DNA from: Thermoanaerobacterales bacterium
GTDB taxonomy: Bacteria > Bacillota > Desulfotomaculia > Desulfotomaculales > JASEER01
Length of the DNA stretch: 64,000 bases
Direction: 5' to 3'
NCBI GenBank assembly: GCA_030019475.1
Contig: JASEER010000006.1
Location: 1-64,000, forward strand
Shown here: piece by piece, positions 47,186 to 64,000 of the stretch
Layout of the letters: each line of letters begins with the position of its first letter
How positions within the stretch are numbered: the stretch's first letter is position 1
Translations under genes and position numbers: made by a program
Notes under the pieces: generated by a model
Seen by the model: only the letters and a program-made list of their open reading frames with translations
Databases searched by the model: none
Told to the model about the DNA's origin: nothing

Positions 47186-47410
47186 ATGAAGAAGAAAGCG
47201 ATGGCCAGAGACGGTGCAATAGCGTGTGACATTGAAAAGATGGCGGCCTCAATACCCATTGAGGTTAGGGCTCTTGAAAAGGGGTCCGGCGTGTTTTACC
47301 GTGGAAGACTGGTTCTGACGGCCAAAAAGAAGGCCTGGGCCGATCAGTACGCGGAAGCCAACAAGATGTCTCTCGGCAGAGTATTCAGCAGTTCTCCTGA
47401 AGAGGTTTGA
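47186..47410 (+). CDS. Small hypothetical protein
   Basis: About 74 residues, no family recognised; LEKGSGVFYRGRLVLTAKKKAWADQYAEANKMSLGRVF looks like a compact basic domain. ATG at 47186 follows AAGGAG at 11 bases; a GTG at 47174 is also in frame. It is less GC-rich than the chromosome-like genes and starts the accessory stretch, 6 bases before the Cys-rich gene. Confidence 0.5.
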   Translation: MKKKAMARDGAIACDIEKMAASIPIEVRALEKGSGVFYRGRLVLTAKKKAWADQYAEANKMSLGRVFSSSPEEV

Positions 47411-47416
47411 AAAAGG

Positions 47417-47893
47417 ATGGCGACTAAGATGGATGAACTGGAAGTTCTGCGCCGCTTCGAAGTGCCGCGCAAGATTCTGGAGATGGCGAAGATGTTTCCG
47501 GGTGTGGTTGATAGGGCAACTCGAATTGCTCGCGTGGTGGGCCTAAAGTACCCGGACAACACCGTCTTTGAAATGGCCGTAATCGAAGAGGCGGCTAAGG
47601 CTGGGCACATACCAAAGTGCTATCGCTATGAACTCCGTTGGGATGAGGCCGGCTTGGCAGGCGACTGTAAGGACTGGGGCCTGCCGATGCTGAATCCCGG
47701 TGAGTCCTGGAGTCATACTCGGTGCCCAGTCATGCTGTGCTGTGTGCATTGTGCTCAGAGGTGTCCTCGCTTCTTCGAGGCCTGCACGAAGCGATGCCTG
47801 GTGTACCAACGGTGGGCTGATCGAAGAGCCAAAAGTGCTTTTGATGGGCCAGCCACGTTTAGGCCGGTCAAATGCCACAGGAGGGTGCCATGA
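47417..47893 (+). CDS. Cys-rich hypothetical protein upstream of druA-like gene
   Basis: 158 residues. N-terminal helical part (MDELEVLRRFEVPRKILEMAKMF), then a cysteine cluster (CPVMLCCVHCAQRCPRFFEACTKRC, about residues 104-128) that could bind zinc or an iron-sulfur cluster. No family recognised. Its stop overlaps the DruA-like start (ATGA), so the two proteins are made together. Confidence 0.6.
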   Translation: MATKMDELEVLRRFEVPRKILEMAKMFPGVVDRATRIARVVGLKYPDNTVFEMAVIEEAAKAGHIPKCYRYELRWDEAGLAGDCKDWGLPMLNPGESWSHTRCPVMLCCVHCAQRCPRFFEACTKRCLVYQRWADRRAKSAFDGPATFRPVKCHRRVP

Positions 47894-49062
47894 CTACCGA
47901 AGTACTAAAGGAGCTGATCATCCACTCGCTTGAGCATCAGGGCTTCATTATCGACGGTCACCGTATCCTCCTGCCGCCCCAGCTCGATAAGCAGGGGATA
48001 CGCAGACTTCACGCTGCAGCGGTGGCCCACCGCGTGGACCGTGCTCGCCGAGCGTTGAAGCGCCACGAGGACCACCTGCTCCAGCGGATTGCAGCCGGGG
48101 CAGATGTCGTACCGGAGCGCATTTCCCCTCGCCTGGTAGAAGTGCAGGCAGGGACGGATGACGAACTCCTCTTCCGGTATGCATCGCTCCACTGGAGCAT
48201 CCCGGTTTCGTCGGGGTACGGGCGGCGGCTCCGTTTCCTTGTTGTCGACGAGCAGAATGACAAGTTGATCGGACTTATTGGCCTGGGTGACCCAGTCTTC
48301 GCCTTGGGCGCGCGGGACAGGTGGATCGGCTGGGATGCCGAGGCGCGAAAAGAGCGCCTGCACCACGTGATGGATGCCTTTGTCCTCGGCGCTGTTCCGC
48401 CGTACTCGTTTCTGCTTTGCGGCAAACTGGTGGCCATGCTGGTGGCCAGCAATGAGATCAAAAAGGCTTTCATGCGCAAGTACTCCAAGAAGCGCTTATC
48501 GTTCATTCGGGGCCGACCCCTGGACGCGCGGCTCGTTCTCGTGACGACCACCTCGGCCCTGGGCCGGTCGTCCCTTTACAACCGGGTGACCTATGATGGC
48601 CGCTTGCTCTACCACAGCGTAGGCTTTACCCGCGGCTCCGGGGAATTCCACTTCTCCAACGGTCTGTATAGGGCCATCTCCGACTACGCCATGCAGTTCT
48701 GTCAGCCCACGGCCAAGAACGAAAAGTGGGGGAACGGCTTCCGAAACCGCCGCGAGATTGTCAAGAAATGCCTGGTGGACCTCGGCCTATCCCAAGACTT
48801 ACTCTACCACGGCATCCGCCGCGAGGTTTTCGTCGTTCCCCTGGCCCACAACGCGCGGGAGTTCCTCCAGGGGAAGCACTCCAAGGTCCGCTGGCTCGAT
48901 CAGTCTGTGGAGGACCTTTTCCGCTCGTTCCGCAAACGCTGGCTCCTGCTCCGGGCCGAACGCAACCAGCGCTATCGAGACTTCAACCCGGAGTCCTGGC
49001 GCCTCTGGGGACGGAAGGCGGGAGAGGTCCTGCAGAGCAGCGGGAGAGGAGAGGATTTGTGA
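47890..49062 (+). CDS. DruA-like (DUF4338) protein, putative phage-defence component
   Basis: 390 residues. The DUF4338 core is RLRFLVVDEQNDKLIGLIGL, then GARDRWIGWDAEARKERLHHVMDAFVLG and TTTSALGRSSLYNRV with a later GFTRGSGEFHF. DUF4338 defines DruA of the Druantia anti-phage systems, but no druE helicase is present here. It may act with the preceding Cys-rich protein. ATG at 47890 follows GGAGGG. The stop is fused (TGATG) to a short interrupted frame. Confidence 0.75.
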   Translation: MTTEVLKELIIHSLEHQGFIIDGHRILLPPQLDKQGIRRLHAAAVAHRVDRARRALKRHEDHLLQRIAAGADVVPERISPRLVEVQAGTDDELLFRYASLHWSIPVSSGYGRRLRFLVVDEQNDKLIGLIGLGDPVFALGARDRWIGWDAEARKERLHHVMDAFVLGAVPPYSFLLCGKLVAMLVASNEIKKAFMRKYSKKRLSFIRGRPLDARLVLVTTTSALGRSSLYNRVTYDGRLLYHSVGFTRGSGEFHFSNGLYRAISDYAMQFCQPTAKNEKWGNGFRNRREIVKKCLVDLGLSQDLLYHGIRREVFVVPLAHNAREFLQGKHSKVRWLDQSVEDLFRSFRKRWLLLRAERNQRYRDFNPESWRLWGRKAGEVLQSSGRGEDL

Positions 49063-49301
49063 TGGCGAGTAAGGAGCGAGCAGGAGTGAGGCGGCATGAG
49101 ATGCTGTTGGTACAAGAAGAGTTAGGTTGTAAACGTGACGGAGTGTTGTGTAGGTAGGCTCATGTTCGCGCGTTTCATAAGCTGAGGCCGTGGTGCGTGA
49201 TTAGACGGTATAAGGATGATATTGACAGTAATGGACAGTGCTTGCGGTATGAGCGGGGATTTCGGTTGCGGTATGTCCGGTGCAGGGGAACCGACGGGTA
49301 G
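49062..49301 (+). pseudogene. Small basic reading frame interrupted by an in-frame UAG
   Basis: From ATG at 49062, overlapping the druA-like stop, 31 codons run to a TAG (49155-49157). The same frame then continues 47 codons (AHVRAFHKLRPWCVIRRYKD onward) to a TAG at 49299. The second half is basic and Cys-containing, so this may be a broken small gene. Coding status is uncertain. Confidence 0.3.
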
Positions 49302-49390
49302 TATACAAAATGCTCCTTTTGTGTACGCCTTACCGCAAGAACGGCGCAAAAGGCCGGGCAAAGCAGGATGCTAAGCCCGGTTTTTTAGTT
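49301..49390 (+). terminator. Two hairpins ending the druA-like operon
   Basis: GTATACAAAA (49301-49310) pairs with TTTTGTGTAC (49317-49326), with one G-U pair. It is followed by CCGGGC (49353-49358) / GCCCGG (49375-49380) and TTTTTT, a good rho-independent terminator. Confidence 0.7.
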
Positions 49391-49439
49391 CGCAAAAGGT
49401 GAAGGGAGATTGCGAAAAGGAGGGAAAGGAGTCTTGGGA

Positions 49440-49673: not shown

Positions 49674-49676
49674 TCG

Positions 49677-50537
49677 GTGTTCGCCGCGAAGGATGTGACC
49701 CGTTTTGCAGACTACCTGCTGGGCCGGGGGCTTTCCCTGGGCACGGTAGACATCTACGTGGGGCACGTGCGCCGGTTCCTGTCCTGGGTTGAGGGGACCT
49801 ACGGTGATTGCGACCTGACTGTGGTCACGCCCTTGGACGTGGCCGACTATCGGCGCCACCTGCAGGACCGGAACAGGAAGCCATCCACGGTAAACAACGC
49901 CCTCGACGCCATCGGGGCTTTTTTTTCCTGGGCCAGGGACACGGGCTTGGTCCAGGCCGACCCGACGGAAGGTGTGCGGCGGGCGCCCGAGGAAAGGAGT
50001 GCACCCAGGTGGCTGACCCGCCGGGAGGTAGGGGCCGTAGTGCGGGCGGCGCAGAAGTACGGGAGCAAGAGGGATCAGGCCCTGGTTACGCTTCTCCTGC
50101 ACACCGGCCTGCGGGTGTCAGAGGCCGTGGCCCTGCGCGTGGAGGACGTAACGATCAGGGAGAGGAGCGGTCACGTCGTGGTCCGACGCGGCAAGGGCGA
50201 TAAGTACCGGGAGGTCCCGCTGAACGCTACGGTGCGGCGCGTCCTGGCCGAATACGTGGCGGGGCTGGGTGGCGAATGGCTCTTCCCCGGAAGGGGCGGC
50301 CACATGACCAGGAGGGCAGCGGAGAAGATGCTGACCAGGCTGGGCCGGCTGGCGGGCCTGGAGGTGACGCCCCACCGGCTACGGCACACCTTCTGCAAGA
50401 TGCTGGTGGACGCAGGGGAAAGCCTCGACCGCGTGGCGGCCCTGGCCGGGCACGGGAACCTGAATACCACGGCCAGGTACACCAGGCCGGGGATTGAGGA
50501 CCTGGAGCGGGCAGTCGAGAAGCTGGCGTGGGAGTGA
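49677..50537 (+). CDS. Tyrosine recombinase (XerC/D-like integrase)
   Basis: 286 residues. N-terminal SAM-like DNA-binding domain (FADYLLGRGLSLGTVDIYVGH) and a catalytic domain with Arg in LLHTGLRVSEAVAL, Lys in RRGKGDKYREVPL, HRLRHTF, HGNLNT and the nucleophile in ARYTRP. All catalytic residues are present. GTG at 49677 is the start. Size and form fit integrases of mobile elements as well as Xer proteins; here it marks accessory DNA. Confidence 0.88.
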   Translation: MFAAKDVTRFADYLLGRGLSLGTVDIYVGHVRRFLSWVEGTYGDCDLTVVTPLDVADYRRHLQDRNRKPSTVNNALDAIGAFFSWARDTGLVQADPTEGVRRAPEERSAPRWLTRREVGAVVRAAQKYGSKRDQALVTLLLHTGLRVSEAVALRVEDVTIRERSGHVVVRRGKGDKYREVPLNATVRRVLAEYVAGLGGEWLFPGRGGHMTRRAAEKMLTRLGRLAGLEVTPHRLRHTFCKMLVDAGESLDRVAALAGHGNLNTTARYTRPGIEDLERAVEKLAWE

Positions 50538-50968: not shown

Positions 50969-52930
50969 ATGACCGGACTGGCTGAACCCAGGAGCGTTCG
51001 CTTTGAAGAATTGAGTGTTGACGTGATATCCCCTAATCCGAACAACCCCCGGCGCAAGTTTGACGAAGACGCCCTCGCCGAACTGGCGGCGACCATCCGC
51101 CAGGTGGGGCTGATCCAGCCGGTGGTTGTCACCCCCGATGATACCGGCCGGTACCGACTGGTGGCGGGTGAGCGGCGATGGCGCGCTGCCCGGCTGGCTG
51201 GATGGACCACCATCCCGGCAATCGTCCGGATGTTTTCGAGCGAAGAAGAAGCCCAGGCCGCCCTCATCGAAAACTTGCAGCGCCGGGACCTGGATCCTTT
51301 GGAGGAGGCACAGGCCTTCAAGAAGCTCATTCAGGATCACGGATGGACGCAGGATCGGTTGGGGGAAAAACTGGGGTTTTCCCAAGCACATATCGCGAAC
51401 CGTATCCGTCTGCTGGATCTGCCGGACGACGTGCGGGAGCACATCTCCACCGGGCGGCTTACGGCGGCCCACGGCCGTGCCTTGTTGTTTATCAAGGCGG
51501 CGCCAAAGTTTGTCCGGGAGATGGCCGACGAAGCGATACGGCAGAGTTGGTCCGTGCGTCAACTGGATGAATGGATAAGAGGCGCGCTCTACTTCGGACG
51601 CCGGCGTTTCTCCCGGCAGCTCTTCAAGGACGGGTGGGGTGGGGATCAGGGGGCAGAGTTCGACACGAGCGCATGCCGTGGCTGCGATGCCATGGTGGAG
51701 GCCAGCTACCACGATGATAAAAAAAGGCCCTACTGCATTAGGCCGAGTTGCTGGGAGAAGAAACAGGCCGAAGCCAAGAAGCAACAGCGGCTGGAACAAT
51801 CGGAAAAGGCGAAGAGCGTCGCGGCCGGGGGCGGGATGAAGCATATCCGCGATCTGCCCACGGATAGCTACCGCCGCTTGAATCCGCCGCCGGCCGACGT
51901 GGAACTGAACAAATGCCGGGAGTGCGAAAAGCGACTTACCGTTCTTGACTACGGAGATGAGGCTGTTGATGTCTGCCTGGACCCCGGCTGCATCGAGGAA
52001 CAGCAGGCTGCGGCGGCCCGGAACAGGGCGGCGGCTACCCGGGCGAAGACCGAGAAAGAGGTGCAAACGCTGTCTGACGCGGCGGCCGCGATCGGCGGGG
52101 ATATGACGGAGTGCAACGACCTGATAGCTGCGGCGCGAACGGTCTGGGATACCGTAGAGCGGCCCACGTGGTTCGACCTCGCTACGCCGCTTCTTGAGAA
52201 GGAAAGCTTGTTACCCATTGATCTTCTGCTTCGTTACTTTGCCACTAAGAACGATGTCTGTAAGGACGCCACGAACATGCCCCCGCAGCTCGGCAACGTG
52301 CGGATTCTCATCCCGGACCAGGGCATAGAGTTTCGCGGATCCGAGGAGACAATGGGAAGTCAGAAGTACCCCGCATTGACAGTTGCCGAGGGCGAGGGGG
52401 CTCTCACTCTTCAGCACGATCACGGGTCGGTCAAGGACGTTGTGCCGACGATGCCGGTGTTTTATAAGGTGCAGGTCCGGCAAAGCGGGGGCCAGCGCTA
52501 CCTGCGCCAACTGGTGGCCATCAAGACGGCGTCGCGGACCATCTTTGTGGTCGGGCACGCCGGCACGACGATGAGGAAAGAAATCTGGGCGCGCTGGCAA
52601 CGCCTCATCGAGGCGCTGCCGCCAGCGGAGGCGGGACCATCTCCGGAGCTATCGGCCACGCCGGGTGAGGCGGCCGTGGAAGCGAGGGCTTACAAGCTGC
52701 CCGACGGCCAGGTGGTGTTCGTCCACGCGGGCCTGGGCGAATCGGGGTACGGCACCTTCTTCCGGTCCCTCAGGGGCGGGTTGCGCCGCGTGAAGTCACC
52801 CCAAATGCCGATGGTCCCTTCGCGCGAGGTTGCTCAGCAGAACCTCGACGCCTGGGCGATGGAGCACAACCTGCCGCCGGCGGAGGCACCGGCGGATGTT
52901 ATTTCACGCGAAATGACCCGCGCGCAGTAA
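50969..52930 (+). CDS. Large ParB/Spo0J-like protein with cysteine clusters
   Basis: 653 residues. N-terminal ParB domain (ISPNPNNPRRKFDEDALAELA and LVAGERRWRAARLAG, the CTP-binding GERRWRA motif) and the helix-turn-helix WTQDRLGEKLGFSQAHIANRIRLL. From about residue 230 come putative metal-binding cysteine groups (ACRGCDAM and CIRPSCW; then KCRECEKRL and CLDPGC), a second region and a long C-terminal part of unknown fold. Chromosomal ParB is about 290 residues; this long form is typical of plasmids and integrative elements. ATG at 50969 follows GGGAGG. It is followed by the TadZ-like gene. Confidence 0.85.
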   Translation: MTGLAEPRSVRFEELSVDVISPNPNNPRRKFDEDALAELAATIRQVGLIQPVVVTPDDTGRYRLVAGERRWRAARLAGWTTIPAIVRMFSSEEEAQAALIENLQRRDLDPLEEAQAFKKLIQDHGWTQDRLGEKLGFSQAHIANRIRLLDLPDDVREHISTGRLTAAHGRALLFIKAAPKFVREMADEAIRQSWSVRQLDEWIRGALYFGRRRFSRQLFKDGWGGDQGAEFDTSACRGCDAMVEASYHDDKKRPYCIRPSCWEKKQAEAKKQQRLEQSEKAKSVAAGGGMKHIRDLPTDSYRRLNPPPADVELNKCRECEKRLTVLDYGDEAVDVCLDPGCIEEQQAAAARNRAAATRAKTEKEVQTLSDAAAAIGGDMTECNDLIAAARTVWDTVERPTWFDLATPLLEKESLLPIDLLLRYFATKNDVCKDATNMPPQLGNVRILIPDQGIEFRGSEETMGSQKYPALTVAEGEGALTLQHDHGSVKDVVPTMPVFYKVQVRQSGGQRYLRQLVAIKTASRTIFVVGHAGTTMRKEIWARWQRLIEALPPAEAGPSPELSATPGEAAVEARAYKLPDGQVVFVHAGLGESGYGTFFRSLRGGLRRVKSPQMPMVPSREVAQQNLDAWAMEHNLPPAEAPADVISREMTRAQ

Positions 52931-52943: not shown

Positions 52944-54287
52944 GTGCGCTTACTGATCGTCTCATCGTCACCCGAGGTTCTGAGCAACTACCTGCGCAGC
53001 GCAGGGCACGAGACGAAGGACTGCATCTCGACCGACCTGGCGGCGCGGATGGCCGAGGGCTGGGCGGACGTGATCCTTTTCAATGCTGATGCTGTGCAGG
53101 TCCAGTCCGTCAGCCATATGGACGCCTTGAAGACCTTGGTGCCGCTGGCCCGCGTGGTCTTGCTCGCGGACAAGACCAGCGAGCTGGTACCTTACGCCGC
53201 GGCCCTGGGGGTGCGGGACTTCGTGTTCATGCCCGCGGCGCCGGCGGAGGTCCTGCATCGTGTGGAGAACCCGGCCCGGGCCGAAGAGGCTGCGGACGCC
53301 CTGCGGGGCCTTGCACTGCCACGGGTCGAGCCGGAGGCGCCGGACAGGAGGGAACGGAAGCCTGGGATCGCTGCGACACCCACCGAGCAGAAACCATCGA
53401 GGATTGCGGCGCACACCGAAGGCGTTTTCGGCAACCTATTCCGGAAGCGGCGCGGCAATGAAAGATCTGCCCAGCCGGTTGTCGAGGCGCCACCGGACAT
53501 CGGATCGAGGGAACTGCCAGAGGACGGTGACGATGAACCCTGTACTGAGTCACAATTCCATTCTGTCCTTACGGTCTGGAACCCTTCGGGGGTATGCAAA
53601 ACATGCACGGCGCTGAACCTGGCCGCGGCCGCGGCGCGGGGCGGATACGATGTCGCCCTGGTGAACCTGGACCTGGTGTGTCCCGAACTGGACATCTGGT
53701 TCGGGATTCAACAGACTACCGTGGAACGCCGGAAAGGAAACCTTACGCACGGCGTCGGGTTGATGACCTTCGGCGAGGCCCTGCCGGTAGAGGTAGTGCC
53801 GAAGATGCTTCAGGAGTACGGTTGGGGGATCAAGTACCTGCCCGCCGGCAACAAGCTGGGCAACATCGGCACACCGGATTTCGAGTTGGGCACCATCGAG
53901 AGAGCTATTGAGGCGGTTGCCGGCCGGGATGCTTCGCGGCCTGCCCTGACCATCCTCAACGCCGCCGCATGTTTTGAGTTGCCCTGTTCCTACGGCGCGC
54001 TCAAGGCCGCCGATGTGATCCTGATCCCCACCACTGATGCTCCCCAGGAAGCGGAGGTGGTAACACAGCAGATTTCGGAGCTTCGGCGGGTAGGGGTTGA
54101 CAGTAAGATCATCGAGGTCCTGTGGACCCTGGGTAACGGGAAGAGAGAACCGGTCTGGCCGGGAATCGAGCGGATCGTTGTGCCAAGGGACGATGCCGGT
54201 TACCTGGCCGCCGCGGCACAGAGAAACCCATATGCCGCAACGGAGGACGGCCGGAGCCTATGGGAGAAGGTCCTTACGGGGATATAG
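52944..54287 (+). CDS. TadZ/CpaE-like ATPase
   Basis: 447 residues. An N-terminal receiver-like domain without a clear phospho-site (RLLIVSSSPEVLSNYL, then ADVILFNADAV, PLARVVLLADK), a disordered linker, then a ParA/MinD-like ATPase domain whose P-loop is degenerate, SGVCKTCTALN in place of KGGxGKT, with a lysine still at the core. TadZ proteins place the Tad pilus machine at the cell pole. GTG at 52944 follows GGGGGG. It lies between parB-like and toxin-antitoxin genes, 6 kb from tadA. Confidence 0.8.
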   Translation: MRLLIVSSSPEVLSNYLRSAGHETKDCISTDLAARMAEGWADVILFNADAVQVQSVSHMDALKTLVPLARVVLLADKTSELVPYAAALGVRDFVFMPAAPAEVLHRVENPARAEEAADALRGLALPRVEPEAPDRRERKPGIAATPTEQKPSRIAAHTEGVFGNLFRKRRGNERSAQPVVEAPPDIGSRELPEDGDDEPCTESQFHSVLTVWNPSGVCKTCTALNLAAAAARGGYDVALVNLDLVCPELDIWFGIQQTTVERRKGNLTHGVGLMTFGEALPVEVVPKMLQEYGWGIKYLPAGNKLGNIGTPDFELGTIERAIEAVAGRDASRPALTILNAAACFELPCSYGALKAADVILIPTTDAPQEAEVVTQQISELRRVGVDSKIIEVLWTLGNGKREPVWPGIERIVVPRDDAGYLAAAAQRNPYAATEDGRSLWEKVLTGI

Positions 54288-54290
54288 AAA

Positions 54291-54851
54291 GTGGGTGATT
54301 CCGGGACTATGTCGCGCACGTCAAGCGGTCGGGATTTGGACTACATCCACCTGCAGTTGGCGGACACAACAATGCGCCTGCTTCGGGGGAAGGTAGTAAC
54401 CACCTTTGGACGGCTTACCCATCGCTTGGCCGTTGTCGTATCAGAAGAGTTGGCTGTCCAAACGGTCAATTTGCTCAGGCGGGAACTGACCCGTGCGGCG
54501 CGTCTGTTGCAAGTGCCCTTGTTTGAAACCGTAGAGCGCGGCGGTTTCGCTTTTCTGGAGTCGGAAGGGCGGGGCTGTGCGTCCATTGACGAACTGATAG
54601 AGGAAATGGAGGCGATGATGGAAACCACCGGATGCGCACCGTGTGTACCGTATCCTTTTCAAGGCAGCATTGCTTTATATCATCCCGAAGCGTGGCGGGA
54701 CATGCGCTCTGCCGTAGGCGCCTTGCGTTGGCTGAGGCGCTCGCGTGTTCTGGGCGTCGCCTCGGTAGTTGTAATCGTGTTGAATCAAGCAGTCCCGCTG
54801 GTAATGAACAATCTGGAACAAGGTTTAGCACGGGAAACGGTTTTCATTTAA
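54291..54851 (+). CDS. Hypothetical protein with C-terminal hydrophobic helix
   Basis: 186 residues. Two-part layout: an N-terminal helical region (LQLADTTMRLLRGKVVTTFGRLTHRLAVVVSEEL) and a C-terminal membrane-like helix (VLGVASVVVIVLNQAVPLVM). Start GTG at 54291 (ATG at 54309 is possible). No family recognised; it starts 3 bases after the TadZ-like stop and is probably co-transcribed. Confidence 0.55.
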   Translation: MGDSGTMSRTSSGRDLDYIHLQLADTTMRLLRGKVVTTFGRLTHRLAVVVSEELAVQTVNLLRRELTRAARLLQVPLFETVERGGFAFLESEGRGCASIDELIEEMEAMMETTGCAPCVPYPFQGSIALYHPEAWRDMRSAVGALRWLRRSRVLGVASVVVIVLNQAVPLVMNNLEQGLARETVFI

Positions 54852-55000: not shown

Positions 55001-55426
55001 ATGAGCATGCTGATGGAGATGACTTTCAGCTCCGCGCGCAAGTCTTTTACTGAGCTTTTCGATGGGGTGTGGCATCGTTTCCTTCCGGCCCTGGTCAGGC
55101 GGCGTCAGACCGAAGAGGTCCTGCTGGTACGCCGGGACCTGCAGCAGGATATCCTGAAAGCCTACACATTGAAGCCCGAAGTCTTGCGGGAAGAGGACGG
55201 CTCCATTACTATGGCCCTTGATGTGCTCGACATAGCCGTCAACGCGCCCACCTTTGGGGAAGCCGTTGACCGGTTGGTGGAGGAGCTTAAGATCTACGCG
55301 GAGGACTACTTTAACCGCTCACAGTTGTACCTTAACGCGCCGAACAGGCGGGGCCATTTCCCCTTCGTCCTGCGCGTCTGGCTCTGCGATGACGACAAGC
55401 AGATTCGGTCCCTGCTGGAGCTGTAG
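55001..55426 (+). CDS. Phd/HicB-like antitoxin
   Basis: 141 residues. The N-terminus (MTFSSARKSFTELFDGV) looks like a Phd/YefM DNA-binding domain, and the C-terminal part (ITMALDVLDIAVNAPTFGEAVDRLVEELKIYAEDY) like the HicB antitoxin fold. ATG at 55001 is chosen because it follows GAAGGGGG and lies just after the dyad. The toxin-like gene starts 3 bases after the stop. Confidence 0.65.
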   Translation: MSMLMEMTFSSARKSFTELFDGVWHRFLPALVRRRQTEEVLLVRRDLQQDILKAYTLKPEVLREEDGSITMALDVLDIAVNAPTFGEAVDRLVEELKIYAEDYFNRSQLYLNAPNRRGHFPFVLRVWLCDDDKQIRSLLEL

Positions 55427-55429: not shown

Positions 55430-55651
55430 ATGCCGCCAACCTTCGGGCAATTGAAGAAATTCTGCGAAAAGAACGGTTGGTACCTGATCCGCAACACCGA
55501 CCATTGGTACTATGAGAAGGTACTGTCCAACGGGATCGTTCTCCGGACCAGGGTCAGCCATTCGGTGGGCAAAGAAATTCCCGGTCACTTATGGCGGAAG
55601 ATCCTTAAACAATTGCAGGTTACCGAAGATGAGTTCTACAGAAATCTCTAA
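55430..55651 (+). CDS. HicA-like small toxin
   Basis: 73 residues. FGQLKKFCEKNGWYLIRNTDHWYYEKVL then VLRTRVSHSVGKEIPGHLWRKILKQLQVTEDEFYRNL matches the HicA/YcfA double-stranded-RNA-binding-like fold, with the histidine of TDHWYY in the catalytic place. Would cleave mRNA when free of the antitoxin. Confidence 0.7.
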   Translation: MPPTFGQLKKFCEKNGWYLIRNTDHWYYEKVLSNGIVLRTRVSHSVGKEIPGHLWRKILKQLQVTEDEFYRNL

Positions 55652-55692: not shown

Positions 55693-56643
55693 GTGCGTAA
55701 ATGGTTTACCAGCATTCTGGCCCTGGTCTTCATCCTGGCCCCGGCCCTGCCGGCGCTGGCCGGGCCGCCGAGCCATAGCGCGGTGTTTGTGCTCAACGAG
55801 AAGACCTACACGGTGGATGGTCAGATGAAGACGATGGACGCCGTGACCTTCGCGGAGAACGGTCGTACTTACGTCCCGGTGCGCTACCTGGCCCTGGCCT
55901 GCGGCGTCCCGCAAGACAAGATCGGCTACGCAAACGGGCAGGTCACGCTGACCATGCCGGACAGCGTGATCGGGGACACCGTGGTCAAGCTCTGGGTCGG
56001 CAAGCGCGACCTCAAGATCAACAACGAGGCCAAGACCATGGACGTAACCGTCCTGGCCCGTAACGGGCGGACCTATCTCCCGGCGCGGTGGGTGGCCCAG
56101 GACGGGTTCGGCTACAAGGTGGACTGGGTGGCCACGAAGAATGCGGTGCTCATCTACCCGCCGGGTGCCGAGCCGCCGGCGGTGATCGAGCCGGTGCCCG
56201 AGCCGCCGGGGGAGGTCAAGGAGTTCGAGGCTGAGGGCAGCCTCAAGGACAGGTACCCGAACGACCCGTATGTTAAGAGCGGCTCCCTGTCCCGGGCCGA
56301 CTACATGGTGGCCGACCTGTCCGATTTGCCGATCAAGGTCGGTTCGACCACCGTCTACAAGCTGAGCTTCGCCGGGCCGGAGCCCCCGATTCCCGACGGC
56401 CGCTTCTACGTCGAGCAGTCCAATCCGGGCGCCAAAGAGGCCAGCTTGATGTTCGCCAAGGACGGTAAGATCGTGGAGTTCTCCGGCGACGATCTCCACA
56501 ATGGCGGGGAGACCCACTGGACGCAGAAGTACTTCATCACGGTGGACACCCTCCAGACCGCGGACGAGGTGTGGGTTGAGGGCATTGACGGGTATAACAG
56601 CTACATTCTAATCTTGCCCAACCCGGCGAAAGGGAGGATGTAA
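55693..56643 (+). CDS. Secreted stalk-domain protein
   Basis: 316 residues, signal peptide (SILALVFILAPALPALA), then a copper-amine-oxidase-N-type stalk domain (VDGQMKTMDAVTFAENGRTYVPVRYLALACGV, INNEAKTMDVTVLARNGRTYLPARWVAQ), a Pro/Glu linker and an unrecognised C-terminal beta-rich domain (about residues 190-310). GTG at 55693 follows TAGGAGGTGC. The next secreted gene starts 3 bases after the stop. The domain type is shared with the protein at 33638. Confidence 0.85.
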   Translation: MRKWFTSILALVFILAPALPALAGPPSHSAVFVLNEKTYTVDGQMKTMDAVTFAENGRTYVPVRYLALACGVPQDKIGYANGQVTLTMPDSVIGDTVVKLWVGKRDLKINNEAKTMDVTVLARNGRTYLPARWVAQDGFGYKVDWVATKNAVLIYPPGAEPPAVIEPVPEPPGEVKEFEAEGSLKDRYPNDPYVKSGSLSRADYMVADLSDLPIKVGSTTVYKLSFAGPEPPIPDGRFYVEQSNPGAKEASLMFAKDGKIVEFSGDDLHNGGETHWTQKYFITVDTLQTADEVWVEGIDGYNSYILILPNPAKGRM

Positions 56644-56646: not shown

Positions 56647-58287
56647 GTGAGAAAACTGGCCTGGCTCTTAACTCTCCTGATGATCCTGACGGCCGTCCCC
56701 TGGGGGGCGGCCTTCGCTTCCCCCGAACAAACCCTGGCTGAAGAAGTCGTCGTCGGCAAGTTTATCTTCGAAGGCTACTGGGACATCTGGGGCGCAAACG
56801 GCAAATGGACCAACAACACCGGCCCAGGCAGCAAGAACCTGAGCGTCGATTCCCTGGTGGTGTATCCGTCAGGCTGGGCCGAGGGCAGCCGGGGACTCAA
56901 GGACCTCCTGCGGCGATACGAACTGACCCGCGCCGAGGTCAAGTACGTCTACCCCTTTGGCGAGGCGGAATACAACGACGCCGGCAAGCGCTACGACATG
57001 CCCTGGGTAGTTCTTGGCAAGAAAGAAGGCTATTACTGGGAGCACTACCGTACCATGCCCAACAACCCGCGGGCGGAGATCAAGAGCTTCGATCCCCAAA
57101 CCGGGGCAACGGTGGTTAAGTGGACCATCGACTATCCCGCGAAGCTGAACCCAGCCGACCCGAAGTCGGCCCCGAGAGGACCTGAAGACAAGGCTAAGAG
57201 CACCAAGGACTGGCTGAAAAACGGCGAGTGGGACAAGATCGACCTGCGGTTCGCCAGCAAGACGGACCTGGACAAGATCAGGACCAACAAAGCCCTGGAG
57301 GGCTGGCGGGTCTACTTCCCGGCCATCGTGGCCTGGTACGGCATCCCCAAACCCGAGGTCAACCTCATCGCGGTGGACATCGACCCGGGCGTGGACGAGC
57401 CGGAACCCGGCCAAAAGTACACCGGCACCGTCACCTTCTACAACGCCTCGGACATGCCCCTTGAGGACGTGCCGGTAGCCTTCTACAATGGCGCCTTCCG
57501 GGGATACCTGAAGGACGACGCCGGCAATACCGTCACCAGCGCCGACTTCGCGCCGGGCGAAGAGAAGACCTTTAACTTCACCTGGACGGCTCCGGGGACG
57601 GGCGAAGCGACACTTAAAGGCGTCATCGACACCCCGCCGTTGCCGGATAACTACGCGGAGACCGATGAGAGCGACAACATCGTCGAGGTCCGGCTCTCCG
57701 TGATCGGCCCGCCGCCGCCGAGCGGGCCGGGCTCCCTGACTTTCACCGCGGTCAGCCAGAGCGGCAAGTACACCCGTCCGCCGGGGACGGCCAAGTGGAC
57801 CGACTGGGTAACGGCCACGCTGACCGTGCCGGCGCCGACGCCGCCGAAGGGGACATTGAAGTCCTGGAGCATCACCTCGGCCAAGCTGACCTACCCCAAG
57901 AAGCACCCGTGGTTTACGTTTGGGTCACCCTGGCCGCCGCAGGGTACGAAGACGATCAACATGACGCCGCAGGGTCATACAGCGACAGCGAAGTTCCAGG
58001 AGGACTGGAGCCTGAACGGAGCCCCGGTCTACGCGCGGTACATCGACGGAGACGGTGAGCTGGTTGATGAGGGCGAGGTTCCCGGCGAAACCTATTACCC
58101 AATCACGGCCACGTACACGGTACATTACACCTACGAATACCAGGTGAGACACCGGAGTTGCAGCACTGACGCAAACGGCCACCGTTCCTGCGACACATGG
58201 TATGAAACCAAGACCGGCAGCGGCACCGACAGCGGTACGGTAAGCGGTAGGCTCTTGGTAGACGGATCGGGAGTCAACAGTCTGTAG
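56647..58287 (+). CDS. Secreted CARDB-domain protein
   Basis: 546 residues with a signal peptide (LAWLLTLLMILTAVPWGAAFA). The middle holds a CARDB-like adhesion domain (VNLIAVDIDPGVDEPEPGQKYTG, then PGEEKTFNFTW and DNYAETDESDNIVEV), followed by a Thr/Gly-rich C-terminal part with a CSTD...CDTW Cys pair. Likely exported and surface-exposed; it may be cargo or substrate of the downstream pilus, which is inference. GTG at 56647. Confidence 0.8.
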   Translation: MRKLAWLLTLLMILTAVPWGAAFASPEQTLAEEVVVGKFIFEGYWDIWGANGKWTNNTGPGSKNLSVDSLVVYPSGWAEGSRGLKDLLRRYELTRAEVKYVYPFGEAEYNDAGKRYDMPWVVLGKKEGYYWEHYRTMPNNPRAEIKSFDPQTGATVVKWTIDYPAKLNPADPKSAPRGPEDKAKSTKDWLKNGEWDKIDLRFASKTDLDKIRTNKALEGWRVYFPAIVAWYGIPKPEVNLIAVDIDPGVDEPEPGQKYTGTVTFYNASDMPLEDVPVAFYNGAFRGYLKDDAGNTVTSADFAPGEEKTFNFTWTAPGTGEATLKGVIDTPPLPDNYAETDESDNIVEVRLSVIGPPPPSGPGSLTFTAVSQSGKYTRPPGTAKWTDWVTATLTVPAPTPPKGTLKSWSITSAKLTYPKKHPWFTFGSPWPPQGTKTINMTPQGHTATAKFQEDWSLNGAPVYARYIDGDGELVDEGEVPGETYYPITATYTVHYTYEYQVRHRSCSTDANGHRSCDTWYETKTGSGTDSGTVSGRLLVDGSGVNSL

Positions 58288-58299
58288 CAGGCTGGAAAT

Positions 58300-58373: not shown

Positions 58374-58583
58374 ATGAAGTTCATGATCATGAGAATCAAT
58401 AGCAACAGAGCGCTGGGCAGCGATAAGGATGAGATTATTCAGTCTTCCACTCAGTTGGCGGTCCAGGAATTATTTAGCTCCATAAGCCCGGACACGATTG
58501 TCTATGGTGCAGAATTGAAAAGGGGTGTGGTTGCACCCTTTACAGTGTATGAGACCAACAGGGGTGACTTAGAAACTAGTTGA
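58374..58583 (+). CDS. Small hypothetical protein overlapping an antisense gene
   Basis: About 69 residues, MKFMIMRINSNRALGSDKDE onward; no family recognised. ATG at 58374 is 10 bases after GGAGG. AT-richer than neighbours. Its last 82 bases run antisense to the minus-strand metallopeptidase-like gene. Confidence 0.5.
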   Translation: MKFMIMRINSNRALGSDKDEIIQSSTQLAVQELFSSISPDTIVYGAELKRGVVAPFTVYETNRGDLETS

Positions 58584-59362
58584 AACTTGAGGTTATCAAG
58601 TGTAAACCCGTGTATGCGAATCATCTCGTCAATATACTTGGTTGCTGATTCTGGGGTTAAGTCACTGGGGTATGTCGGCCATAGGCGCTCTTGCGCCAAT
58701 AATTCCTCAAAGGACGTTCTGTGACTGAATTTGAGAAGAATCTTCGTCCATTGCTGGGGGGTTAATCGTTGCCTAAGTTCAATAACTCGCAACAGTGTCC
58801 AGTTCAGTTGACTGTCGCTTGGGTTTCGAAGATGTTGCTTGATCACATCTTTACAGTCGGCATAAAGTCTCTCCCGGATACCAGTTAAGAGACCATAGTC
58901 TTCCACAACTTTATCTACCGTAGGATGTATGGCTACGTCACAAATCCTGGCTAAAAAGTTTCTCTTAGTCCAAGTTTCCCGGTCTACTCTTTCAGAACCT
59001 ATCTGATCCCATAACCATGGAAACCCCAAAGACCCGTGGACAAATAAATGAGCAAGTTCGTGAGCAATGTCGGAAGGCGTGTAGTCATCGGCAACAGCTA
59101 TTACTGCTGCATAGTTGCGATCGGTACGCAAGTTTTCTTTATCCTGAGCTGACAATGGTGTAATGATTAGTGCTGCATAACAAGTCCGAGCAAGATCAAT
59201 GCGGATGGCGCTTTGTATTTGTGCCATTTGGAGGATTACAAGGTGTGCGTTAGGAATTACATCCTGGGTATCCCGCCAGAGTCTAAGCAGAGGCTTGTTT
59301 CCCATGACTGCTTTGCGTAGTCTTGGATGTGAAGTGTTAAAGCTGAACTGCTCCATAAACAT
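58502..59362 (-). CDS. HExxH metallopeptidase-like protein
   Basis: 286 residues. YTPSDIAHELAHLFVHG (about residues 95-111) holds an HELAH zinc motif like that of ImmA/IrrE or other zincins; a third ligand is not clear. C-terminal part is helical and unrecognised. It lies in the AT-richest stretch of the region and is transcribed against the Tad operon, so it is probably part of acquired DNA. Function unknown; no repressor lies next to it. Confidence 0.65.
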   Translation of the reverse strand: MFMEQFSFNTSHPRLRKAVMGNKPLLRLWRDTQDVIPNAHLVILQMAQIQSAIRIDLARTCYAALIITPLSAQDKENLRTDRNYAAVIAVADDYTPSDIAHELAHLFVHGSLGFPWLWDQIGSERVDRETWTKRNFLARICDVAIHPTVDKVVEDYGLLTGIRERLYADCKDVIKQHLRNPSDSQLNWTLLRVIELRQRLTPQQWTKILLKFSHRTSFEELLAQERLWPTYPSDLTPESATKYIDEMIRIHGFTLDNLKFQLVSKSPLLVSYTVKGATTPLFNSAP

Positions 59363-59653: not shown

Positions 59654-59686
59654 CGGCTCTTCAACATCCGTGACGAACGAGGCTTC

Positions 59687-60175
59687 ATGGCGACCTACTT
59701 TCTGGCTCTGCTGCTGGTGTTCCTCATCCTTATGTTTGGCATGGCCATCAGCGTGTCGTTCGGCGGGCACAAGGTGGCCTACGCAACGTACCAGTGGTTT
59801 GGCGAAGCCTTAAACTACGCGGCATGGGAAGCGAACCAAGACGGGGATCCGACCCAGGTAAGCCTGCGAACGAGCGCCGCAAAGAGGGCGTTCGCCGAGG
59901 TTTTCGCCGAAATGACCGGTACCACGTACAGTAATGATTCGTTTGTTCCGCGCGGGAGTACGAGCGTTTATCCGGGGCCGATTACCTTGGGCAGTTTTGT
60001 TCCCATCGAGCCGGGAGATCCCGTCCCTAACGGAACGGCTTCGCAGCCAGGGTACGTGGCAACAATCAGTGTTCCTGTATTCGGCGGGGCCTACCCTGTT
60101 GTGGGAGAGCAGTACGTGTCGATCCCCATGCGCTGTTTCGCCGTAGTGCAATCGGTCGAGGGCCAAGTCAACTAA
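59687..60175 (+). CDS. TadE-like pseudopilin
   Basis: 162 residues from ATG at 59687; probably longer. One long N-terminal hydrophobic helix (MATYFLALLLVFLILMFGMAISV) and an extracellular beta-rich part. The codons just upstream read IRLFNIRDERGF, a prepilin-like leader of the TadE type with a charged stretch before Gly, but would require an AUA start at 59651 (see that entry). The first gene of the Tad assembly operon. Confidence 0.75.
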   Translation: MATYFLALLLVFLILMFGMAISVSFGGHKVAYATYQWFGEALNYAAWEANQDGDPTQVSLRTSAAKRAFAEVFAEMTGTTYSNDSFVPRGSTSVYPGPITLGSFVPIEPGDPVPNGTASQPGYVATISVPVFGGAYPVVGEQYVSIPMRCFAVVQSVEGQVN

Positions 60176-60237
60176 CCGAGCAAAGAAAGGAGTGATCGGC
60201 CATATCTCTCGAAGTCGCGCGCGACTGGAGCGCACAC

Positions 60238-61536
60238 ATGAAGCTGGAGGAGGCGCGCATCGTCCAAGACTTATCCCGCCAGATCATGCGGGAGAGCAGG
60301 AACGCTATCGGCGGGCCTCTGCCGCTGGAGGCGCTTGAGCATCTAGTCCGGCAGGCGGTGGTATCCCGGCCCGACATTGCGCCGGTCGAGGAGCAGAGGT
60401 TTGTGGACATGATCATCGGCCAGGCCACCGGATACGGTCCCCTCAAGCCATTCTTTATCGGAGAAGCCGCCGAGGAAATCACCGAGGTTTTTATCAATCC
60501 TCCTTCGACGAGGGACCAGCCTCCGCGGGTATTCATCGCCAAACACGGCCGCATCCATCAGGTAAACGAAACCGTCTTTGCGAACGACGAGGAGGTAAGA
60601 CAGTTCTGCCAGCGCATCTGCGAGAGCGTGGGCCGGCCTTTCACGGCGGACGCGCCCATCGTGGACGCCTGGCTGCCCGATGGGTCACGCATCGCTGTTA
60701 TGGGCTATAAGGTCAGTCCTCTGGGCACCGTGGCCGCGATCCGCAAGTCACCTTTGAGGCGCCCGCCCATGCCCCTGGATAAGCTGGTGGCCTACGGTGC
60801 CTTCCCGCCGTTTGTTGCCGGGTTGATGGTTGACCTGCTCGTCAAGGGCCGGGCGAACCTCGGCATTTGGGGACGCACGGACAGCGGCAAGACGACGGTC
60901 ATGCGCAGCCTGGGGGCGTTTATCGACACCAGTGAGCGCGTGATAATCGCCGAACCCAGCTTTGAATTGGCCCTGCCGCATCTGCCCAACTGCGTTAACC
61001 TTGTTGAGGTCTACTACGGTCAGGATGCCATTGTCTCAATGACCCAGATATGCAAGGCCGTTAACCGCAACACTCCCGACCGCGGCATTGTGGCGGAAAT
61101 ACGTTCCCAGGAAGCTATTGATGCCAGCCAGATAGCTGCTTCGACTCCTTGCGGCTTCTGGACATCAGGGCATGCCGGCGGTGTCCCCGAGTTTCGCTCA
61201 CGCATCTACGGCATGTGGCTTAACGGCAAGGTCCAGTTACCCATGGAATTTCTTGATGAGATCATTAGGTCGATGTTCCACTTCCTCATCTTCCTTGATA
61301 AAGACAGCGCCGGCCAGAGGGCGTTGATGTCCATTGTCGAGGTCACTTCGGACGGTTATCGCCCCATCGTTGAGTTTGACGAACAGGAGTTCCTACGGAC
61401 CAAAGGCAAGGTGCGCCGTTGGTGTTACAGGCAGACGGTGACCCCCGAACGCCTGGCGAGGCTTGCTTTCCGAGGCGCCGAAATCAAGCCGGAATACCAG
61501 GCCGTGCACCGGGAGTTTCTGAACGAGGAGGTATAG
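60238..61536 (+). CDS. tadA: Tad secretion ATPase (TadA/CpaF, VirB11-like)
   Basis: 432 residues. N-terminal VirB11-like domain with ATGYGPLKPFF, Walker A GRTDSGKTTV (about residues 218-227), Asp-box/Walker B region as VAEIRSQEAIDA, and HAGGVPEFRSRI as the His box. It powers pilin assembly. ATG at 60238 has GGAG 7 bases upstream; an in-frame ATA at 60202 also follows AAAGGAGTGATC, as in the gene before. Confidence 0.9.
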   Translation: MKLEEARIVQDLSRQIMRESRNAIGGPLPLEALEHLVRQAVVSRPDIAPVEEQRFVDMIIGQATGYGPLKPFFIGEAAEEITEVFINPPSTRDQPPRVFIAKHGRIHQVNETVFANDEEVRQFCQRICESVGRPFTADAPIVDAWLPDGSRIAVMGYKVSPLGTVAAIRKSPLRRPPMPLDKLVAYGAFPPFVAGLMVDLLVKGRANLGIWGRTDSGKTTVMRSLGAFIDTSERVIIAEPSFELALPHLPNCVNLVEVYYGQDAIVSMTQICKAVNRNTPDRGIVAEIRSQEAIDASQIAASTPCGFWTSGHAGGVPEFRSRIYGMWLNGKVQLPMEFLDEIIRSMFHFLIFLDKDSAGQRALMSIVEVTSDGYRPIVEFDEQEFLRTKGKVRRWCYRQTVTPERLARLAFRGAEIKPEYQAVHREFLNEEV

Positions 61537-61539
61537 TGC

Positions 61540-62457
61540 TTGAGCGTCTTTGTTTTCTTGGGAGGGCTCTTCATGAGCCTGTTCTTGCTTTTCCGCACCC
61601 TGGCCACCGGGGAATCACCGGTCAAACAAGATCCCAGAAGCCTTGTGGCATCCCTCGTTTTGCGTGGAGGCACGTGTTTGGGAACCGCCGTGGCGCTGTT
61701 CTTTATAGGTACCACGTTTTTGGGAACACCGGTCTCTGGTCTGGCCCTCGGGCTGCTGGGATGGTTCCTTCCCCACTGGATTGAAGAAGTGATAGCGAGC
61801 AGAAGGCAGGCAAAGTTACGAGCCTTGGCCCGGGACTTCATTACCAGCGCCGCGGGGCTTTACTCGGGCAACCAGACAACCATTGAGGTCGTCCGACTGG
61901 CGGCGGAACGCTTCGGGCCGCCGTTCGGCCGGGAGTTTGAGGACATGGTGGCGCAGAACAAGTTCAACCGTGGTGCGTCTTTCAAACAGATGTTCGAGGC
62001 GATGGGCGAAAAGTACGGCCTTGACGAGCTGCGGGCCGTGGGACACATCATAGCCGCGTCCGAAATAGCCGGTGGGCCGCAGGCGGCCGCCAGGGGGCTC
62101 AAGCGGCTTGGCGAGGCTCTGCGGCAAAGAGACAAGCAGTTATCGGACAGGAAGAAAGGTCTGTTTGAACCTCTCGTCGCCGGGGTTGTAGCCCTGTTGG
62201 GAATCCTGGCCGGCCTGGTGCTGGATGTGACGATAGCCAGGCCGTATTTTGACGGCGCCGGGCGGTGGATTCTGACCGCCAGCACGGTGCTTATGGTGGG
62301 CATGGCCTTTGCGGTAATGCGCTTGTCGAGCGCAAAAGATCTTCTCCAGACCGCGCCCAGGGGCAAAAGCCCCGCCTCCCAGCCCGAGAAGCCGGACGCC
62401 CCGGCCGGGCGTCGTTTAACAGCCGGGATTCGTACATCAATTGTCAGGGGGGAGTGA
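61540..62457 (+). CDS. tadB: Tad inner-membrane platform protein TadB
   Basis: 305 residues, T2SSF/GspF-like: N-terminal membrane helices, cytoplasmic domain (RDFITSAAGLYSGNQTTIEVVRLAAE, FGREFEDMVAQNKFNRGASF), and a second helix pair near residues 205-270. TTG at 61540 follows GAGGAGG and lies 3 bases after tadA. Confidence 0.85.
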   Translation: MSVFVFLGGLFMSLFLLFRTLATGESPVKQDPRSLVASLVLRGGTCLGTAVALFFIGTTFLGTPVSGLALGLLGWFLPHWIEEVIASRRQAKLRALARDFITSAAGLYSGNQTTIEVVRLAAERFGPPFGREFEDMVAQNKFNRGASFKQMFEAMGEKYGLDELRAVGHIIAASEIAGGPQAAARGLKRLGEALRQRDKQLSDRKKGLFEPLVAGVVALLGILAGLVLDVTIARPYFDGAGRWILTASTVLMVGMAFAVMRLSSAKDLLQTAPRGKSPASQPEKPDAPAGRRLTAGIRTSIVRGE

Positions 62458-62460
62458 ACC

Positions 62461-63273
62461 GTGCTTCTCTATCTTGGTCTATTCTTAACGCTGCTGGCTA
62501 CCCTGATCGTCCTGACCGTGCCTTTCGATGATTATGAACCCAGCCCGGCACAGCTTACGGCCGACCGGGTGCGCCAAAAGCTCATCGAGCATTATACCCG
62601 CGGAACGAAAGAGGTCACTCTGAAGGTATTGGGAAGGTCGGTGGGACAGTTAATCAGGTTTTCAATGCTGTTCGGCGGCATCTTGGGCGGCCTTACTTTC
62701 CTGGCCTCGGTGCGCTTCATCGGCCTTTGGGCTTTACCCTTGGCCGTGCTGGTCGGACTGGGCGGCATCGGCGTCGTCGAGTTCGGCTTACGAAACGAGT
62801 TCCGGTCCTGGCAGGACCGGATGGTGGACGGTTTGCCGCAGCTTGTCGGCTTCGTGCCAGCCTTCCTAAGCGTCGGCAGCATCACCCCGAGCGAGGCGTT
62901 AAGACTCACCTTACCGTTCTTGCCCCAGCCCTTGCGGTCTGAAATGGCTGCGGTGGTGGACAAAATCACGGACACGGGGAAGGTGCGGGAAGCGCTCGAT
63001 GAACTGGCCTTGCGCGTGCGGCATCCATTGTTTGACGCAATCGCTTTCCGTCTGGCCGCGGCCTGGGACGTTAAAGTGACGCCCGATCTTTTTGACGACC
63101 TGGACGACCAGATTGCATACCGGCGGGCGGAGATGGCGGCCAGAACCACAACTACGAAAGCCGGCCTCCTGGGCTTGATTTGCGCCGGGGGTTTGGCCGG
63201 CGCGGGTCTGGTCTTCTTGTACCCGGGCGTAAAGTTTATGTTCAGTCAGGTCGGGAGGGGGTTTGGGATGTAG
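62461..63273 (+). CDS. tadC: Tad inner-membrane platform protein TadC
   Basis: 270 residues of the same T2SSF family as TadB, with helices at both ends and RMVDGLPQLVGFVPAFLSVGSITPSEAL in the cytoplasmic part. TadB and TadC normally work as a pair. GTG at 62461 lies 3 bases after tadB. Confidence 0.85.
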   Translation: MLLYLGLFLTLLATLIVLTVPFDDYEPSPAQLTADRVRQKLIEHYTRGTKEVTLKVLGRSVGQLIRFSMLFGGILGGLTFLASVRFIGLWALPLAVLVGLGGIGVVEFGLRNEFRSWQDRMVDGLPQLVGFVPAFLSVGSITPSEALRLTLPFLPQPLRSEMAAVVDKITDTGKVREALDELALRVRHPLFDAIAFRLAAAWDVKVTPDLFDDLDDQIAYRRAEMAARTTTTKAGLLGLICAGGLAGAGLVFLYPGVKFMFSQVGRGFGM

Positions 63274-63288
63274 GGAGGATGGTTGCTA

Positions 63289-63417
63289 ATGGGGAATCGT
63301 GGTCGACCGGCAGGGAAGGTGTTGTCGTTACTTATCCGTTTGGTGGCAATCGTGTTTGCCCTGTGGTTGGGGCATCTGTGCTTAAGAGCTGTCGCGTCAC
63401 TGGTTAAACCTAACTGA
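63289..63417 (+). CDS. Small single-helix membrane protein
   Basis: 42 residues: MGNRGRPAGKVLSLLIRLVA then IVFALWLGHLCLRAV, one membrane helix. ATG at 63289 is 10 bases after GGGAGG. It sits between tadC and the Flp-like pilin, in the same direction. Short, so confidence is limited. Confidence 0.45.
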   Translation: MGNRGRPAGKVLSLLIRLVAIVFALWLGHLCLRAVASLVKPN

Positions 63418-63440
63418 AACGTAAGGGGGTAAAACAACCT

Positions 63441-63647
63441 ATGATTAAGTGTCTTAAGGGAAAAGTGCGGATGGTTTCCGGCGTGCTGAAGGACGAGAAA
63501 GGCAACCTTGCCGAGTTAGGATGGTGGCTCGGCGGCGGGGCAGTGGCAGTGGCGATCATTCTCATACTCCTGGCCGTTGCTCCCGATACTATGCGGAACC
63601 TCTTCGTGGATTTTGTTGACTACATGCGTTCGAGTTTCGGCTTCTAA
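63441..63647 (+). CDS. Flp-like pilin
   Basis: 68 residues: a leader ending KDEKG, then NLAELGWWLGGGAVAVAIILILLAV, a hydrophobic helix with a glutamate four places after the Gly, the hallmark of type IV/Flp prepilins cut by a prepilin peptidase. Small size and place in the Tad operon fit the major pilin. ATG at 63441 follows AAGGGGG. Confidence 0.75.
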   Translation: MIKCLKGKVRMVSGVLKDEKGNLAELGWWLGGGAVAVAIILILLAVAPDTMRNLFVDFVDYMRSSFGF

Positions 63648-63668
63648 TCCGTTCCAGGAAGTGATGCT

Positions 63669-64000
63669 ATGTTAGGCAAAATCGGAATGGCCCTGGTAAC
63701 CATCTGGCTTCTGGTGGGTATCGGGGCCTGCCTGGCCATAACCCAGGGGATGATGACTCTCTGGCATGCGACCGAAAACCAGGCCCAGTTTCTCGCCATC
63801 AGCCAGGGACGATACGGGGGGTACACAACCGAGGCGGATGAAGCCATGAGGGACTTCTGCCACGATCTAAACCTTGATTGCTCTGAAATCGAAGTCGCAG
63901 TGTCGGCTCCCGGTGGTCCCGTACCTTGGGGAACAGTCGTCACGGCAAAAGTTACGGTCCCCTTTAAGTTCCAACTGGGCTCGTTCTTGGTGCCGTTCGA
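63669..64000 (+). CDS. Pseudopilin-like protein, 3' partial
   Basis: ATG at 63669 opens a frame that runs off the window end (at least 110 residues): MLGKIGMALVTIWLLVGIGA, a single N-terminal hydrophobic helix, then a part with FCHDLNLDC and a beta-rich region (VVTAKVTVPFKFQLGSFLV). It resembles TadE/TadG-like minor pilins. GGAAGTGATG lies just upstream. Confidence 0.6.
   Translation, partial: MLGKIGMALVTIWLLVGIGACLAITQGMMTLWHATENQAQFLAISQGRYGGYTTEADEAMRDFCHDLNLDCSEIEVAVSAPGGPVPWGTVVTAKVTVPFKFQLGSFLVPF

Follow-up and report, generated by a model that had tools for sequence, protein, structure and literature searches.

Gene content and setting of the island

The window, a stretch of 64,000 nucleotides from a Thermoanaerobacterales bacterium of the order Desulfotomaculales, comprises positions 1-64000 of contig C6 (78,052 b) in a genome of 2.28 Mb and 87 contigs (G000), and its right end is an accessory chromosomal island with two Tad/Flp pilus modules. 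To the left of 47 kb lies ordinary chromosome (an atp operon, SpoIID-like and Mbl/MreB-like genes, a large protease gene and a sigma/anti-sigma pair). This atp-mbl-protease-sigma segment is syntenic in four other genomes (G058, G028, G045 and G032), none of which has the Tad block following it, and the left edge of the block, at ~47.1-47.2 kb just downstream of the segment, was placed by this synteny alone. Because the flank is conserved elsewhere without Tad genes, and because genomes that do carry them have them at other places, the block is accessory, as an earlier note on this DNA had proposed. The GC content, 0.69-0.76 at 38-44 kb, is lower inside the block (0.50-0.64). The recombinase, ParB, TadZ-like, TadA, TadB, TadC-like and toxin-antitoxin genes that the note had named are all present, as judged from open reading frames (ORFs) and Pfam, and its few exceptions to a common strand come down to a single minus-strand gene between 47.2 kb and the contig end. 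The block begins at 47.2 kb, as the note had it, but does not end at position 64000: it continues for 14 kb to the end of the contig at 78052, where the second Tad/Flp module lies. The features are as follows.

44471..45921, minus strand: two VapBC-like toxin-antitoxin pairs in the left flank (PIN 9e-17, MazE_antitoxin 5e-11)
47186..47893, plus strand: two small ORFs at the left edge of the block, 47417-47893 without a Pfam match and both without a PADLOC match
47890..49062, plus strand: DruA (DUF4338; Pfam DruA 3.8e-122, PADLOC DruA)
49677..50537, plus strand: tyrosine recombinase (Phage_integrase 1e-34)
50969..52930, plus strand: large ParB (ParB_N 2e-33, HTH_ParB 5e-28)
52944..54287, plus strand: TadZ-like protein with a CheY-type receiver and a ParA/MinD-like domain (Walker A degenerate, NPSGVCKT)
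54309..54851, plus strand: small protein of unassigned function, weakly similar to a protein at the same place in G079
55001-55426 and 55430-55651, plus strand: PHD_like antitoxin and HicA-like toxin (Pfam; pair also in G058)
55693..56643, plus strand: secreted protein resembling the N-terminal part of copper amine oxidases (CuAO-N; Cu_amine_oxidN1 4e-29), a constant member of the cassette
56647..58287, plus strand: secreted CARDB protein, a constant member of the cassette, 64% identical in G001
58502..59362, minus strand: HExxH (IrrE-like) protein, the sole minus-strand gene, assigned from sequence with no Pfam, PADLOC or NCBIfam match
59687..60175, plus strand: pseudopilin-like protein, 63% identical in G001
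60238..61536, plus strand: TadA1 pilus ATPase (T2SSE 2e-14)
61540..62457, plus strand: TadB1 platform protein (T2SSF match)
62461..63273, plus strand: TadC1 platform protein (TadC-like, from conserved gene order)
63441..64000, plus strand: Flp1-like pilin and TadE-like pseudopilin, crossing the window end (from size, N-terminus and position)
Beyond the window to 78052: SAF/RcpC, GGDEF, ParA2, ParA3, two A24-type prepilin peptidases, RcpC, TadA2, TadB2, TadC2, Flp2, Flp3 and TadE2

Pfam matches to T2SSE, T2SSF, Peptidase_A24 and RcpC in the window and the downstream 14 kb identify the block as a Tad/Flp locus; the Flp-like small ORFs (63441-63647, 75096-75290 and 75352-75543) were called by size, N-terminus and position rather than by Pfam. 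Tad/Flp loci such as flp-tad of A. actinomycetemcomitans, the 'widespread colonization island', contain TadZ, TadA, TadB, TadC, Flp, TadE-type pseudopilins, RcpC and a prepilin peptidase. The same set, with Flp in the form of the Flp-like ORFs, is found here. The block differs from such loci in having two unequal Tad modules, in its secreted CuAO-N and CARDB proteins, and in the linkage of its relatives to a type IV secretion system (T4SS); moreover, no secretin (RcpA)-like ORF was noticed between 59 and 78 kb, where part of the ORFs were run against Pfam.

The Tad cassette in conjugative elements of relatives

Of the 113 genomes of the order, 22 gave a match to TadA1 at E <= 1e-60 and carry the cassette; they belong to 13 families, and the identities are 43-61%. 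Outside the window, genes were called with a simple script rather than a curated caller, and many of the genomes are drafts or metagenome-assembled. Among the named carriers are Desulfotruncus alcoholivorax, Ammonifex thiophilus, Desulforadius tongensis, Desulfofundulus australicus and D. thermobenzoicus. The shared order is CuAO-CARDB-Tad1-ParA2-ParA3-Tad2. On contig C5 of G001 the order follows the window nearly gene for gene, with an integrase, ParB (43% identical), TadZ (38%) and TadA1 (60%). The recurrence of this order in G001, and of variants of it in about 20 other genomes, shows that the arrangement is not due to chance. IMG/VR held no relatives of TadA1, and a comparison with plasmids gave generic matches only, at ~30% identity.

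Elsewhere in the order the cassette is usually part of a conjugative element, and in G052, G043, G045, G051, G007, G028, G017, G016 and G029 it stands downstream of a T4SS operon. A recombinase (serine, tyrosine or both) opens the full elements, and the T4SS operon that comes next is of Gram-positive type (VirB2-like, PrgI, VirB4, VirB6-like and an SLT/M23 hydrolase). TadZ, CuAO-N, CARDB and Tad module 1 come after it, and then the intact ATPase ParA2, ParA3, Tad module 2, a ParM-like actin, a RepA-like protein, TopIII and VirD4. In G052, Pfam confirmed PrgI, VirB4, SLT and M23, the ParM-like actin, TopIII and VirD4, and the VirB6-like protein matched T4SS_pilin. The element there reaches from a large serine recombinase (972,871) to near 1,051,431 and is an insertion of ~78 kb, the same flanking genes lying ~6 kb apart in the genus-mates G023 and G070. 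The Tad cassette of G052 is thus cargo or part of an inserted conjugative element, and its recombinase, VirB4, VirD4 and delimited insertion are as expected of an integrative conjugative element (ICE). No direct repeat longer than 13 bp was found at its edges, which is compatible with a serine recombinase and is no proof of one. The link to mobile elements that the earlier note had suspected is therefore borne out in relatives.

The site itself, between the LUD gene and yqeG-aroE, is an insertion hot spot (G052, G061, G010, G023 and G070; loci L142-L145, L214-L216 and L219), occupied in genus-mates by different mobile elements, several of them with CuAO or VirD4-like genes.

The association of the cassette with the T4SS is also seen across loci. 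An SLT/M23 wall-hydrolase gene lies within 4 kb upstream of TadZ on the same strand at 18 of 22 loci (within 60 nt at 8); 5 of these 22 loci were reached via VirB4 and not via TadA1, so that 13 of 17 TadA1-selected loci is the fairer count. Those that have no such gene upstream are the window, G001-C5 and G058, all three with ParB just upstream, and G083-C31. VirB4 of the element family is present in 16 of the 22 TadA1 genomes as against 20 of the 91 others (Fisher p = 1.3e-5, related genomes being counted as independent). Furthermore, G001-C16, G045, G007, G029, G028 and G058-C44 each have, 3-15 kb upstream of VirB4, a homologue of the window recombinase that is 56-72% identical to it. On this comparison, the window tyrosine recombinase is a marker gene of the T4SS+Tad element family.

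The recombinase (49677-50537) is present in the window, whereas VirB4 and VirD4 are not on the same contig. T4SS genes are missing from the window, as they are from the corresponding loci of G001 and G058, and in all three ParB precedes TadZ instead. T4SS genes do occur elsewhere in G000: the 5.7-kb contig C68 carries two HU proteins, VirB2-like proteins, a PrgI-like protein and VirB4, and C49 carries VirB6-SLT/M23-VirD4-S1. Based on these results we propose, with a probability of roughly 0.7, that the block is the Tad/Flp half of a modular family of Desulfotomaculales ICEs, present here as a T4SS-less, chromosomally inserted derivative.

A resident locus or a decayed remnant as unlikely alternatives

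Tad loci are common as chromosomal adhesion loci, and the block could be a resident, vertically inherited locus of this kind, at whose edges mobile genes (DruA, toxin-antitoxin, recombinase and ParB) have collected and whose link to the T4SS is secondary. Consistent with this, G000, G001 and G058 group together in the AtpD tree and all three have the cassette. The cassette is not at a conserved place, however, and neither the TadA1 nor the TadA2 tree agrees with AtpD or with the other: the TadA1 tree joins G000 with G001 (0.99) and places G058 elsewhere, whereas the TadA2 tree joins G000 with G058 (1.0) and G001 with G028 (1.0). Such conflict is the pattern of horizontally moved, shuffled modules. 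Similarly, one genus has the cassette in 3 of its 9 genomes with three separate TadA1 types (genus-mates G052, G043 and G070), and the recombinase matches T4SS-bearing elements. We consider a resident origin unlikely.

It is also rather improbable that the block is a decayed remnant, in which an old element, its T4SS gone, has ceased to be expressed or to move. The T4SS is indeed absent at this position and toxin-antitoxin and DruA genes have inserted around it; yet the reading frames of the Tad genes, recombinase, ParB and prepilin peptidases are open, have normal lengths and retain conserved motifs, and the occurrence of the T4SS-less layout with ParB in G001 and G058 as well suggests maintenance.

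ParB and TadZ

The earlier note had drawn attention to a large ParB with cysteine groups directly before TadZ, and had suggested that the two may form a partition-like pair. The cysteine groups are real and make up two four-cysteine motifs (C236-X2-C239-X16-C256-X4-C261 and C316-X2-C319-X16-C336-X4-C341), the first of which is complete in all eight other large ParBs aligned. The protein has a ParB/Noc core of CTPase and helix-turn-helix (HTH) parts and keeps GERRWRA and ENLQR, which we take to be the ParB-type CTPase motifs. Several of its large homologues adjoin terminase and portal genes, without TadZ, and are on that account assigned to prophages. By this likeness the cysteine-rich ParB of the window is of phage or mobile-element type. 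Its C-terminal tail (residues ~563-640) is 47-58% identical to tails in G059, G090, G066 and G045, while the rest of these ParB-like proteins is only ~30% identical; the tail is probably a separately moving module. Four positions (R173, T179, A184 and G201) set ParB versus Noc specificity (PMC7383237), and at these the window ParB has Q, R, D and A, matching neither. No canonical parS was found within 3 mismatches in the window, whose ParB has other recognition residues, and the inverted repeats seen near 50.6-50.95 kb either resemble terminators or are weak. The PRTRC ParB (TIGR03734) is likewise a large mobile-element ParB and matches the window protein over residues 25-373 at 1e-30; the score of 106.8 bits is, however, below the family cut-off of 278.6, and no PRTRC partner genes, ThiF-like included, are among the annotated neighbours.

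ParB lies upstream of TadZ with a gap of 13-14 nt in G000 and 819 nt in G001, and with a 34-nt overlap in G058. The parB-tadZ-tad order thus does recur, at the corresponding locus of the closest relatives, but most carriers have no ParB near TadZ. No ordinary ParA adjoins ParB in G000 or G001. The ParB at the same place in G058 is a shorter, plasmid-type protein with its own ParA alongside, and this difference in type implies that ParB was acquired there separately.

The description of TadZ as a ParA-like ATPase holds for the domain and not for an intact ATPase. In an alignment of 21 homologues the Walker A motif is degenerate, with no KGGxGKT box, in all 21, whereas all 16 ParA2 proteins compared from the same clusters have an intact Walker A, although one of them has Arg in place of the signature Lys; ParA2 is encoded here 13 kb downstream of ParB-TadZ. 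Of a ParABS system, the ParB with CTP-binding and HTH parts is thus present, but a partner ParA with a deviant Walker A beside ParB is not. These data make a ParB-TadZ partition pair unlikely, while an interaction without ATP hydrolysis is possible. That ParB and TadZ act as ParB/ParA partners to segregate the element or place the pilus, despite their adjacency in three genomes and the CTPase motifs kept by ParB, is very improbable, and we rejected it on the P-loop alignment, the mixed ParB types and the mostly absent linkage.

TadZ homologues vary in other ways. Some carry a GGDEF domain (G083:C31:66926-68929; L125:2311-4284 in G104; L127:227-1960 in G083; L094:17302-19128 in G032), and these fusions suggest direct control of a Tad positioning protein by cyclic di-GMP. 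In the homologues of G007:C37 and G022:C39 (L126:4812-6191) the ParA-like part is unalignable at the Walker box, as if the ATPase fold had been lost or replaced.

A model for the island

To return to the T4SS-less ICE derivative that we favour, the interval between recombinase and TadZ holds a phage-type large ParB in the window where full elements hold the T4SS. The Tad genes would build Flp pili, with TadA ATPases driving TadB/TadC platforms and the A24 peptidases maturing the pilins. TadZ, which combines a receiver domain with a degenerate ParA fold, would be a positioning scaffold of the pilus machine, and cyclic di-GMP control of the pili is suggested by the GGDEF protein encoded nearby, which several relatives have fused to TadZ. 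Bringing cells or surfaces into contact is the most likely role of the pili, which in full elements would help the T4SS to transfer DNA. ParB most likely binds a site of its own on the element and may serve maintenance or regulation of the T4SS-less element rather than the pilus. The T4SS of C68 and C49 might serve the window element, and the window recombinase, with its homologues upstream of VirB4, provides a link between the two.

Several points weigh against this model. The right end of the block is cut by the assembly, which leaves the window element without a defined end and makes its mobility today conjectural. Extension to the contig end, which the earlier note had proposed, brought the intact ParA2 and the second Tad module but no conjugation genes: neither an att repeat nor a T4SS gene was found on contig C6, and no relaxase turned up there, although no search was aimed at relaxases. 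The T4SS of C68 and C49 could belong to another element. Tad loci are often unlinked to conjugation, an example being the ordinary Tad locus on C5 of G000, which has no T4SS or ParB around it. The Fisher test gives related genomes the weight of independent ones. Finally, the ParB-type islands of G000, G001 and G058, close relatives by AtpD, may be partly vertical.

A more far-reaching and quite doubtful version would make the Tad double module the mating pilus of a hybrid T4SS-Tad machine, with TadZ, through its receiver-domain form, as the physical adaptor that joins the wall-hydrolase end of the T4SS to the pilus base. In T4SS-less copies like that of the window, element DNA bound by ParB would take the place of the T4SS at TadZ, and in this way the element would still be found by the pilus complex, or by a T4SS that acts in trans.

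Further genes of the window

The defence genes announced by the earlier note amount to one DruA gene. It is present once in the genome, which excludes a multi-copy transposon, and a Druantia system was rejected, there being no DruE partner and no helicase-sized ORF in the block. The PHD_like and HicA-like proteins are 66% and 85% identical to the pair at the same place in G058; these identities, far above that of the neighbouring Tad1 genes, suggest a recent exchange of the pair. An antitoxin piece from the VapBC-like pairs of the left flank has an 82% identical copy beside the protease gene in G058 (L257:8769-8981). AtpD is encoded twice in G000, at 29829-31244 of the window and at C29:4977-6350 (78% identical), and G001 also has two copies. 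At ~5600-10900 of the window, beside a hydrogenase-like cluster, three similar CRP/FNR-type regulator genes flank a long iron-sulfur oxidoreductase gene.

Relation to known systems and significance

Gram-positive ICEs of the Tn916/ICEBs1 kind encode VirB4, PrgI-type and VirB6-like proteins, a wall hydrolase and a coupling protein and integrate into the chromosome. The relatives of the window share these transfer components and integration but have the Tad double module in the transfer region, while T4SS genes are absent from the window copy. IncI/R64 and PAPI-1 encode PilV-type IVb mating pili of diderms, whose role in mating is proven by experiment; they too have a type IV-type pilus on the conjugative element itself, beside the T4SS, but of PilV-type IVb rather than Tad, and a mating role here would be deduced from genes. 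In the linear Cutibacterium acnes plasmids p15.1.R1 and pIMPLE-HL096PA1, a tad locus lies beside conjugation genes that include a VirB4-family ATPase; the pilin was found on the cell surface, and microscopy showed appendages (PMC5696575). These, too, are Gram-positive mobile elements with a tad locus next to conjugation genes; as described there, they differ in being linear and actinobacterial and in having one tad locus and FtsK-like and TcpC-like proteins, with no TadZ abutting SLT/M23 and no double Tad cassette mentioned. Beyond these plasmids, no T4SS+Tad element was found in the literature covered, which leaves out most subscription papers, and none with a double Tad module in Desulfotomaculales.

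In the usual view, monoderm conjugation systems have no mating pili. In this element family, which spans 13 families of Desulfotomaculales, the pilus cassette directly follows the T4SS operon in most cases and so provides a concrete candidate for a mating pilus, with testable genes and with culturable carriers in Desulfofundulus, Desulfotruncus, Ammonifex and Desulforadius. A ParB beside TadZ, in turn, need not imply partition. The fibres encoded by these elements may help cells to hold each other during gene transfer.

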